This document shows, piece after piece, positions 26,190 to 29,573 of a stretch of 64,000 nt of DNA. The stretch is from Breznakiella homolactica (GTDB lineage: Bacteria; Spirochaetota; Spirochaetia; Treponematales; Breznakiellaceae). Made by a program: the position numbers and the translations under genes. The notes under the pieces are model-generated. The model did no database searches and was not told where the DNA came from. It saw only the letters and a list, made by a program, of their open reading frames with translations. Where the stretch lies: positions 4,092,001 to 4,156,000 of the forward strand of contig NZ_CP067089.2 of the NCBI RefSeq assembly GCF_016616095.2, in the 5' to 3' direction. Numbering within the stretch: position 1 is the stretch's first letter; each line of letters begins with the position of its first letter.

Positions 26190-27476
26190 TTACCCTACCT
26201 GTTCTTCTCCGATAGTTTTATCCGCGTATTTGCGGGAAAGAGTTTCCTGATGTACCCGGACAATATGGCTGCAGAGAGCCTGGACACCGTGCTCGCCTCT
26301 TATTTTTTCCTGCAGGTCCGCGGCGTTTTTCCGGTATGCGGAATTTTCTATAAGGTCGTTTACCTTTGTTTCCAGCTGCGCTCTCGTTATCCGGGACACG
26401 TTGCCGTACCTGGGGCCAATACCGAGATCGTGCACCCGTTTGCCCCAGTAATGCTGGTCCACAAAGAGAGGCATCACCATCTGGGGTTTGCCCGCCCGGC
26501 TTGCGCTGTGGGTCGTTCCGCATCCTCCGTGATGGATTATCACGTCAAAGAGCGGGAATATTCTGCAGTGGGGAATAAGGCCGTCCAGCAGATACATATC
26601 CTGGTTTTTCGCGTTTTCCGCCAGGGTCGCACCGGTCTGCCACCAGCCGGACCCGACCACGAATTTGTATCCCCGTTTTGAGCAGATATCCAGCAGCCAT
26701 TCGCAGAGAAGATCCTTCTTTTTCGTCTTGCAGCTCCCCAGGGTAAAGAAGAGCGTGGGTTTGCTGTCCTTGTTTACGAAATCGGCAAGCTTGTCGAATT
26801 CCTCCTGCTCAAAGGGCAGCATATCGTTGAAGCAGTACCCGCCGATATCCCAGGTGTATTTCCACGCGGGGTCGGTATTGCCCAGGGAAGGGCTGTACAT
26901 CAGGTAGTTGTGCGCGTGGCCGGGAGCGTGGTCGCCCAGGTCTTTTACCTGGGACATGCCCCGCTTTTTCCGGTTTTTGTTGATGATGTTTTTCGTCAGC
27001 ACATTAATCCCGAGGTTAAGCATGTTCCACAGTGCCTTTGGGGTTACCACCGGATTCGGGTACGGCCAGGGCATAACCGGCGGCGGTATTTTTTTCCCCG
27101 GGATAAAGGGGGCGTAGGCCGTCCGGATGAGGGGTTTCCCGCAGTATTCGGCGATACTGGGGGCGGAAAATTCGGTATTTGTCGCCACCAGGATGTCATG
27201 CTTTTCCAGAATAGGAATAAATTCCTCAAACTGCTGTTCGGTTACCCGCTGCATCCACGCCAGCAGGTCCCGGTTGTTGGTGGTTGTTTCCAGGAGGGTG
27301 CTGATATCATCGTAATTCTGCAGGGTATAGTTTAAATTAAAGGCCTGGGCGAATTTCTCGAAGACCCTGGGCAGGCTTATGGTAATTTCATGCCCCTGCT
27401 TAACCAGCGCATCCGCCAAGGCAAGATACGGATAGATGTCACCCTGGGAACCCCGGGTTATTAAAAAGATTTTCAT
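26190..27476 (-). CDS. GT1-family (UGT/MGT-like) glycosyltransferase
   Basis: A 428-residue GT-B fold enzyme. The N-terminus has ITRGSQGDIYPYLALADAL, the usual start of sterol- or macrolide-type UDP-sugar transferases. The C-terminal donor-binding region has HHGGCGTTHSASRAGKP and MPLFVDQHYWGKRVHDLGIG, matching the GT1 signature with the closing DQ pair. Family members glycosylate lipids or small hydrophobic molecules in the cytoplasm. Its ATG overlaps the stop of the radical-SAM gene, so the two probably act on the same product. The acceptor is unknown. Confidence 0.85.
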   Translation of the reverse strand: MKIFLITRGSQGDIYPYLALADALVKQGHEITISLPRVFEKFAQAFNLNYTLQNYDDISTLLETTTNNRDLLAWMQRVTEQQFEEFIPILEKHDILVATNTEFSAPSIAEYCGKPLIRTAYAPFIPGKKIPPPVMPWPYPNPVVTPKALWNMLNLGINVLTKNIINKNRKKRGMSQVKDLGDHAPGHAHNYLMYSPSLGNTDPAWKYTWDIGGYCFNDMLPFEQEEFDKLADFVNKDSKPTLFFTLGSCKTKKKDLLCEWLLDICSKRGYKFVVGSGWWQTGATLAENAKNQDMYLLDGLIPHCRIFPLFDVIIHHGGCGTTHSASRAGKPQMVMPLFVDQHYWGKRVHDLGIGPRYGNVSRITRAQLETKVNDLIENSAYRKNAADLQEKIRGEHGVQALCSHIVRVHQETLSRKYADKTIGEEQVG

Positions 27477-28684
27477 ATCAATCCGATCTGCGCCAGTTTT
27501 TCACTGTCCAGCTGGTATTTGGACTCCAGATCCCGGAGGACATTTTCGTTAATTGCCACAGGCCTGTTGAGCTTCTTTGTTTCCCGGTTGGCTTTGAAGA
27601 GCATCCGCACCATCTTGGCGGGGTTGAAAACAATGGAAGACATGATCCAGCAGCCGTGGGTACACCAGCAGTTTGCGGTATATCCGTGGCCCACATCGGC
27701 TATTTCCTTCTTCATGGCGTCACCGTTCATGATAGCCTGGATGTCGCAGCCGTAGTCCTTAACGTTTCCGATGGGGTCCCGCAGTTCGCAGGAACGGAAG
27801 CGGCCGTCGTAATCAATGACCAGGGTTGTCTCGCCGGCGGTGCAGTCCATTCCCCAGGGAGTGGGTTTGTCGATATTGCTGGCCCGGATGTTGTACAGGG
27901 AGCGCATGAGCCCAAGATAGAAAAAGCGGGCGATCTTTTTGCCCATGCGGCTGTCCACGCCTTCGGCGATACGGTCGCCGTACGCCGCGTAGTAGGGGAC
28001 GATTTTATCCTGGATTTCCCGGAGGCTTTTCTCGGTGAGTATCTTGACTCCGTCCTCCCGGGTCATTCCCCGGGCGGCCTCCACGGTATGGGTGGAAATA
28101 TTGAACCGTCCGTAGGCCCACAGCATAAAGTCCATGAGTTCTTCAACATTGTATTTTGTGATGACCGTGGCAACGTTTTTGAGTATCTGGCCGTCATCAC
28201 CGAAATTGTCGTCGATTTTCTGAAGGGTTTCCGCCGCGTGGTAAAAACTCGGGACTCCCCGCTGGGTATCGTGGGTACTGCCGAAGCCGTCAATGGAAAT
28301 GCTGATCGTCAGGTTGGCGTCGGGGCAGCTTTTGCGGAGACGTTTGAGCCATTCCACAATCAGATCGCCCTTTATTCCGTTGGAAGGAAAGTTGATATCC
28401 TTGACTTTGTTGTTTTTATAGAACAGTTCGATTATTTCCGGCAGATCCTCCCGGAGGGTCGGTTCTCCGCCGGACAGCCAGAGCCGGTTGAATTCTCCGG
28501 CGGTTTCGGAAATTTTCTTGATTTCATCGAAGGTAAGTTCCGGTTCCTTTTTATCCATTTCACCGGCGTAGAAACACATCGCGCATTTCGCGTTGCATTT
28601 TCCGGTGACAAAAAGAAAAACCGATTCGAGTTTCCGTTTTGAACTCATTGTGTTGAATGAGCTTCCTTTGCGTTTTGACGGCAT
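27473..28684 (-). CDS. Radical SAM protein with Cys-rich C-terminal region
   Basis: A 403-residue radical SAM enzyme with the cluster motif CNAKCAMC (Cys30, Cys34, Cys37), the SAM-binding LWLSGGEPT and a TIM-barrel core. The C-terminal third has several cysteines (DCTAGETTLVIDYDG, RSCELRDP, CWCTHGCW) consistent with a SPASM-like auxiliary cluster region. The substrate may be a peptide or a small molecule. It overlaps the downstream glycosyltransferase gene by four bases. AAGGATAAGGT precedes this ATG; a second in-frame ATG at 28648 has no ribosome site. Confidence 0.85.
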   Translation of the reverse strand: MPSKRKGSSFNTMSSKRKLESVFLFVTGKCNAKCAMCFYAGEMDKKEPELTFDEIKKISETAGEFNRLWLSGGEPTLREDLPEIIELFYKNNKVKDINFPSNGIKGDLIVEWLKRLRKSCPDANLTISISIDGFGSTHDTQRGVPSFYHAAETLQKIDDNFGDDGQILKNVATVITKYNVEELMDFMLWAYGRFNISTHTVEAARGMTREDGVKILTEKSLREIQDKIVPYYAAYGDRIAEGVDSRMGKKIARFFYLGLMRSLYNIRASNIDKPTPWGMDCTAGETTLVIDYDGRFRSCELRDPIGNVKDYGCDIQAIMNGDAMKKEIADVGHGYTANCWCTHGCWIMSSIVFNPAKMVRMLFKANRETKKLNRPVAINENVLRDLESKYQLDSEKLAQIGLI

Positions 28685-28890
28685 ACCTTATCCTTAATTA
28701 TTATTTTTTCATATTTCCCGAATATGGCCATATGCAAACTGACCGGGAATATACGGATTCCGCCCCGTTCCTGTACGGAAAGTACCGGCAAAAACGGCGA
28801 AATGCCGCTCCTTTGCTTTTACCGGCCCGAAGCGTAAAGAACAGTATAGTTTATTGCCCCTGTCTTGAAAAGGTACGGCGGCAGGGTATC

Positions 28891-29078
28891 TGCATTATGG
28901 GGAATCCGGCACAGAAGCATGGTTGGCAACTGGGTCCGGGGGGCCTGTCTGGGGGCAAGGGCATAGGGCTCCTCGTCGGCCTGCGGCCTCGAAAGTCGCG
29001 CCTATGCCCTTGCCCCCAGACACCCCGCGATACCGGGATTACACCATGCTTCTGTGCCGCTGATCGGGAGATAATGCA
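28891..29078. repeat. Long imperfect inverted repeat (hairpin element 1)
   Basis: Three perfectly complementary segments are nested: TGCATTAT (28891-28898 with 29071-29078), a 17-base segment (28907-28923 with 29043-29059) and a 22-base segment (28946-28967 with 29001-29022). They are separated by unmatched internal loops of similar length on both sides. The 33-base apical loop contains a core (28967-28995) whose exact reverse complement is at 29289-29317. Confidence 0.85.
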
Positions 29079-29235
29079 GATGACATTCTCTGGGAGGGGG
29101 CTGGGTATGTGAGGCCGCTTCGGGAGGAGTGAGGCAACTACAACTGGAGGCGGCAGCAACCCTATCAAGAACTACCATAACCGGGTTGTTCCACCCTTAC
29201 CCAACCACCCTCACGGAGGACGCACAGACCGGTTT

Positions 29236-29375
29236 AGCCGGAAAGCACCCGGCCGTACTGGTAACGCCGGGTCTTTCGTATAAAACGGCTTTCGAGGCCG
29301 CAGGCCGACGAGGAGCCATTCCCATTTCTACACGACAGGACCCGTGGCACCGGTAAACACGGGTGCTTTCCGGCT
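29236..29375. repeat. Long imperfect inverted repeat (hairpin element 2)
   Basis: The outer arms are a perfect 16-base pair: AGCCGGAAAGCACCCG (29236-29251) with 29360-29375. The next 35 bases on each side still pair partly, around GGTAACGCCGGGTC and its partner near 29341-29356. The apex carries the 29-base core at 29289-29317, an exact inverted copy of the core of element 1, while the arms of the two elements are unrelated. Confidence 0.85.
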
Positions 29376-29393
29376 TGCGAGAGTCTGTGTTTC

Positions 29394-29573
29394 CTACAGG
29401 CTCTCGCTGAAATTCATCAGACCGTTGAGGGCGAATTTGAGCTCCCGTTTTGCCCGCTCCTTGGCCGGAGAAAAATCATCCTCCGGAAAGTCCAGGAGAT
29501 TGTAAAAAAGGGTTCTCACTTCATCGAGCTTTTCATTCACTTCATACATCTTATCGTCTTTACTGTCTGCCAT
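29394..29573 (-). CDS. Small acidic protein of 59 residues
   Basis: A short frame with ATG at 29573 preceded by CGGAGATACA (GGAG, five to six bases away) and ended by TAG. The protein begins MADSKDDKMYEVNEKLDEVR, contains LLDFPEDDFSP and an amphipathic helical tail (ERAKRELKFALNGLMNF). No family was recognised. It starts 33 bases after the stop of the AttH-like gene on the same strand, so it is probably the second gene of that unit. Hairpin element 2 begins 18 bases past its stop. Confidence 0.65.
   Translation of the reverse strand: MADSKDDKMYEVNEKLDEVRTLFYNLLDFPEDDFSPAKERAKRELKFALNGLMNFSESL

Follow-up and report, generated by a model that had tools for sequence, protein, structure and literature searches.

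The locus lies in a stretch of DNA of 64,000 nucleotides (the window) and occupies the spacer between a radical-SAM gene and a short ORF that are both read from the minus strand. It consists of two long hairpins, H1 and H2, separated by a middle segment. The features, with the basis on which each was assigned, are as follows:

27473 to 28684, minus strand: neighbouring radical-SAM gene, PF04055 (ORF, Pfam)
28843 to 28871, minus strand: predicted promoter of the radical-SAM gene, with -35 TTTTCA at 28871-28866 and -10 TATACT at 28848-28843, spacing 17 (consensus match)
28882 to 29393, plus strand: whole element of ~512 bp (H1, middle, H2), one of 122 intergenic units (ends set by alignment with other copies)
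28882 to 29092, plus strand: hairpin H1, with outermost stem ATCTGCATTAT, outer stem CGGCACAGAAGCATGGT and a 22-bp inner stem (inverted repeats I3-I5; HMM match with orientation)
28936 to 29037, plus strand: inner module X in H1, built as GGGGGCCTG - arm - apex - arm' - CACCCCGCG, with the bulge GCC at 28943-28945 (row L070:4937-5038:+ of alignment A1)
28967 to 28995, plus strand: 29-nt conserved core (apex A) in H1 (inverted-repeat, shuffle and genome pattern searches)
29093 to 29220, plus strand: variable middle segment, with a third hairpin formed by its paired ends GGAGGGGGCTGGGTATG ... TACCCAACCACCC (sequence, folding)
29221 to 29393, plus strand: hairpin H2, with outer stem AGCCGGAAAGCACCCG/CGGGTGCTTTCCGGCT and inner arms of a truncated, poorly paired type (inverted repeats, HMM)
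29289 to 29317, minus strand: the 29-nt core, with module X reversed, in H2 (inverted-repeat and shuffle searches)
29338 to 29340, minus strand: 3-nt TCC bulge of module X in H2 (sequence; consensus structure of A1)
29394 to 29573, minus strand: 59-aa ORF, without a Pfam match, ending in a stop codon (29396-29394) immediately next to the H2 end (gene prediction)

H1 has three perfect stems, of 11 bp (28888-28898/29071-29081), 17 bp (28907-28923/29043-29059) and 22 bp (28946-28967/29001-29022); a preliminary description of the locus gave the two inner lengths correctly and 8 bp for the outermost one. It also described H2 as a perfect outer stem with a partly paired inner one, and this agrees with the 50-nt arm pair (29236-29285/29326-29375), which is 72% complementary, well paired in the outer stem and poorly in the inner. 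The core at 28967-28995 is, as described, the exact reverse complement of 29289-29317, and a 32-nt extension of it reaches 97% complementarity between the two hairpins. The extent given at that time was 28891-29375; the element itself, with the middle included, is a little longer (28882-29393). A 20-mer from the core was found at two places in the window, and 100 shuffles searched with up to 3 mismatches gave no match. The folding z-score of the region against shuffles is -11.3 on the plus strand and -9.9 on the minus strand; a chance origin of the hairpins and the inverted core is excluded. By nhmmer, the middle segment at 29093 to 29220 has no similarity to other middles. The truncated left arm of the window H2 is common to other H2 copies, and such hairpins (29221-29393 in the window; e.g., L043, L045, L057, and L058) can be seen as a subtype with a short left inner arm, like GTCGTATAAAACGAC, that is unpaired with the right arm.

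The core pattern was found 167 times in the whole genome (81 forward and 86 reverse), compared with a single match for the reversed control pattern, and the 561-bp region gave 114 matches in its own genome. For a survey of the family 81 genome regions were fetched, in which a profile search detected 193 hairpin matches that resolve into 122 intergenic units. The locus is one member of a family of long extragenic palindromes dispersed over the genome, which we call a so far undescribed variant of extragenic palindromic repeats; in the literature searched, which did not extend to subscription journals, no earlier description of it was found. The usual full unit contains H1, a variable middle of ~80-300 nt and H2, and its two hairpins carry module X in opposite directions. 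Each hairpin of a full unit has three tiers and is 170-200 bp long. Inverted H1-H1 units, inverted H2-H2 units and single hairpins also occur, and in some hairpins a second apex type replaces the core. BOX repeats are modular as well, as the H1-H2 units are. Module X is common to H1 and H2 while their outer arms are unrelated, and this accounts for the earlier observation of the same core on different arms. It also accounts for the complementarity of the two cores, for which a loop-loop interaction had been proposed: an inverted core is a common property of the units rather than one of this locus, and the cores are complementary because one module is used in opposite orientations, not through selection for kissing loops.

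Along the genome the units appear clustered at 1820-1883 kb, 2203-2263 kb, and 2722-2759 kb, and in long stretches, for example 1457-1820 kb, no unit was found. Short palindromes were also seen within the units. The palindrome ATATACCTAACGGTAGGTAT, which resembles a TetR-type operator, is present in several unit middles (L041, L042, L043, and L069). Another, GGAGTTTTGC-N(2-6)-GCAAAACTCC, occurs 30 times in this genome, often in the middle of a unit, and 49 times in the related genome G031, with 0 matches for the controls; it is present in 14 of 40 genomes of the family (G000, G031, and 12 more), and the control was in excess in none.

None of the 122 units lies inside a predicted gene and one partly overlaps a gene. 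Divergent spacers are enriched among those with an element (50 of 121, against 28 of 162 without one; Fisher p=1.3e-5). With promoters taken as consensus predictions and genes from an ad hoc hexamer model, the H2 end that faces a gene start is a median of 6 nt from the predicted -35 box, and 41 of 49 such ends are within 12 nt of it. In the control, element-free tandem spacers, the median distance from stop codon to -35 box is 71.5 nt and only 3 of 48 are within 12 nt (Mann-Whitney p=2.7e-14). The -35 boxes adjoining H2 ends are followed by a -10 box at the usual spacing, and about half of the unit ends that face a stop codon are 0-13 nt from it. In the window, the predicted -35 box of the radical-SAM gene is 10 nt from the H1 end. 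The element had been suggested to be a structured RNA leader of this gene; since the predicted promoter sits between the two, it is placed outside the leader. Moreover, orthologues of the gene in six genera (66-78% identity) are without such an element in the DNA examined, and the leader was rejected.

How the units came to adjoin these borders can be read in two ways: they were inserted or retained exactly at functional borders, or the unconstrained flanks around old, retained elements were eroded. Compact spacers or later deletion of the flanks could be a partial cause. One other option is that the units are ordinary transposon debris, such as MITE remnants, and that their border adjacency comes only from the shortness of the spacers. 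Their dispersed and non-coding nature, and a position that is not conserved between genera, would fit such debris. Yet the target-site duplication expected at the ends of MITEs of DDE transposons was not seen: inspection of the termini by eye revealed no direct repeats in the 20 units for which both are defined. The 6-nt distance to the -35 box, compared with 71.5 nt in element-free tandem spacers, also speaks against it, as does the behavior of the arms, considered below. We regard this option as very improbable.

The inner arms (18-20 nt) have a mean identity of 53-64% between copies, compared with 70-92% for the rest of the hairpin, and their identity is independent of that elsewhere in the hairpin (r=0.08 for H1 and 0.14 for H2). 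Left and right arms vary jointly (r=0.93), so that arms which diverge by 40-47% between copies are still ~97% Watson-Crick paired inside each copy; neutral debris would be expected to lose this pairing. There are 206 and 190 cells with changes on both sides, while slid controls gave no more than 42. In the RNAalifold consensus of 96 copies, two-sided changes affect 23 of 29 pairs, G-U is almost absent, and double transversions are no rarer than transitions. A core present at this place only, without compensatory changes, was what the preliminary description held to be fatal to its own reading; the core is instead multi-copy and the two-sided changes are abundant.

Covariation in stems is usually taken as proof of a functional RNA, and the hairpins could be an RNA structure that serves at the 3' end or in the processing of the upstream transcripts and whose stems are under selection for the RNA fold. 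Structured RNAs usually show an apex and a bulge that are conserved on stems that vary but stay paired, and in the relatives described below the X strand comes after a stop codon in 34 cases versus 10 in reverse. An element that abuts a stop codon also leaves no room for an intrinsic terminator, which was found on 0 of 47 such sides and on 25 of 120 element-free sides, although the 0 is largely by construction; the hairpins themselves are not plain intrinsic terminators, as the T-run is absent at their ends. Under RNA selection a clear excess of G-U on one strand would be expected. However, G-U makes up less than ~1% of the variable pairs and is not in excess over A-C on either strand: the helix mismatches pooled from this genome and its relatives are 78 G-T and 102 A-C (p=0.09), close to 1:1 in both directions, and the 53 hairpins from relatives are by themselves likewise close to 1:1. 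The mild excess that does exist, in the inner arms of this genome, is of A-C on the X strand (12 G-T and 26 A-C, p=0.03) and so favors the strand opposite to X. Double transversions as frequent as transitions, and the location of X on opposite strands in H1 and H2 of one unit, also argue against an RNA. In Rfam there were 0 matches at the gathering score for the whole window, and the permissive matches were to eukaryotic miRNA models, i.e., plain hairpins. An RNA 3'-end role is possible, but as an explanation of the stems we consider RNA selection unlikely.

Since G-U is not commoner than A-C, the pairing of the stems is probably not maintained by RNA selection, and a family of more than 100 copies with near-perfect covariation and almost no G-U points to correction of the arms at the DNA level, which probably fits the paired two-sided changes better. 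Stem changes that arise on both sides at once, with no G-U intermediate, are known to result from template switching (PMC8794818), which may be the mechanism acting on these arms.

An exact 22-nt core match is absent from 84,980 GTDB species. The exact core is likewise absent from IMG/VR, and a viral origin was rejected on the latter ground. BLASTN against 59 relatives gave one match, of 26 nt. A covariance model of module X also matches other genera of the family, though more weakly, and these hairpins have the same bulge with different arms, apices and outer arms. The bulge pattern GGGKCCTGYC-N-GRCACCC matches in 45 of 197 genomes of the order, and in no genome of family f3; some of these matches, mainly in GC-rich f5 genomes, are non-palindromic and at the control rate. 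In the fetched loci 53 matches are palindromic, from families f1, f4, and f5, and the bulge-and-arms design is accordingly wider than this genome: hairpins with GGG-TCC-TGYC/GRCA-CCC and different stems are present in all three, and their homology is putative in f4 and f5. As the loci of the relatives were picked by the bulge pattern, the conservation of the bulge there is partly by construction, and they demonstrate that the combination of bulge and palindrome exists rather than how frequent it is. With fold and bulge kept and both arms rewritten in step, it seems that shape rather than sequence is inherited in these look-alikes. The hairpin copies are near-identical within some genomes (e.g., G005) and different between genomes, which suggests spread within lineages, recent in cases such as G005. 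Positional conservation between genera was rejected: shared neighbor genes do not exceed expectation and in both cases checked the hairpin is at the opposite end of the gene.

Two further observations were made in these genomes. In the genome G028, at 1196500-1222000 (L148-L149), six hairpins of two alternating types are spread over 22 kb at intervals of ~3-6 kb, probably as a result of repeated gene duplication. Upstream of the radical-SAM orthologue in other genera, the spacers (L130 and L127) contain strings of differing short perfect palindromes, and palindrome-rich spacers therefore seem to be general in the family.

The explanation that we favor, with some confidence, is that these are dispersed long DNA palindromes at gene borders, whose arms are corrected by copying at the DNA level and which spread as mobile DNA. 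The units would fill the spacer between two genes, from the -35 box of one to the stop codon or the -35 box of the other, and the palindromes would behave as DNA and not like a single conserved RNA. The two arms would stay matched because each change is copied across, for which intrastrand template switching at the quasi-palindrome is the likeliest route, with the apex and the 3-nt bulge held by constraint, and the copies would be spread by an enzyme. The units may act, or may be tolerated, as borders between transcription units; they could, for instance, stop read-through, shield the 3' ends of mRNAs or take up supercoiling. If the element acts at all, it most likely acts as such a DNA-level border element. 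Against this explanation stand the lack of a transposase partner and of target-site duplications in our searches, and the position of the X strand after stop codons in relatives, which suits an RNA 3'-end role as well. More tentatively, and with a good deal of doubt, we can suggest an order-wide class of gene-border DNA elements that inherit structure, in which every helix would be rewritten jointly on both arms by template switching, the 3-nt TCC bulge between stems kept through recognition by a protein, and the whole spacer occupied. The family offers a natural system in which to test whether arms are corrected at the DNA level, and the conserved bulge gives a concrete handle in looking for a recognizing protein or a mobilizer. 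Another question that is raised by spacers filled from stop codon to -35 box is whether repeats act as transcription borders in these spirochaetes.

The preliminary description had also offered a family of hairpin mobile elements. The family is real; as for mobility, several partners were considered. IS110 targeting or derivation was rejected since the IS110 transposase (PF01548) has 0 matches in the genome, and a reverse transcriptase was set aside (a single RVT_1 locus is present). The genome has one Y1_Tnp gene, at 2483369-2483677. Since no partner transposase and no target duplications were found, we infer mobility solely from the copy number and the genome-specific subfamilies.

The closest parallel is with REP, REPIN, and BIME repeats, in which an inverted REP doublet is moved by a RAYT, a Y1 HUH transposase (Bertels and Rainey, PMC3116915). 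Common to both are extragenic palindromes in inverted doublets (X is opposite in nearly all H1-H2 units), a variable spacer, genome-specific subfamilies and no target duplication, and the presence of a Y1_Tnp gene would also agree with a RAYT. However, no X hairpin is found within 1.5 kb of that gene, where palindromes flanking a cognate RAYT would be expected, and PF01797 (Y1_Tnp) had no match in the carriers G028 (complete), G160, and G169 (drafts); a RAYT partner was rejected for these reasons. The palindromes are 170-200 bp, compared with 20-40 bp for REPIN, with three tiers, an internal bulge and stems rewritten in step between copies. That the family is a REPIN or BIME is, in our view, a slim prospect. 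CGTC REPs were reported from Spirochaetes with no dedicated transposase (Di Nocera, PMC3733652). Apex A includes GGCC-TGC-GGCC with a tag in front, CGTC in 53 of 135 copies and CAGC or TGTC in most of the others, which recalls these CGTC-tagged REPs and the Rickettsia palindromic elements; but the neighboring palindrome has a stem of 4 bp here, and not the stem of 8-9 bp ending in CGTC with a loop of 4-5 nt. ERIC, BOX, and NEMIS are likewise long intergenic repeats with nested stem-loops, and the searchable text of their description (PMC2267715) holds no spirochaete stem-loop repeat family; they conserve the stem sequence among copies, in contrast to the inner stems here. The maintenance of stems by template switching (Monttinen and Loytynoja, PMC8794818), which shares the simultaneous two-sided changes, was described for RNA genes and is proposed here for a dispersed DNA repeat family. 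Compared with REP, CGTC-REP or ERIC the present family is larger and more elaborate, and it keeps its structure while the sequence of its stems is free.
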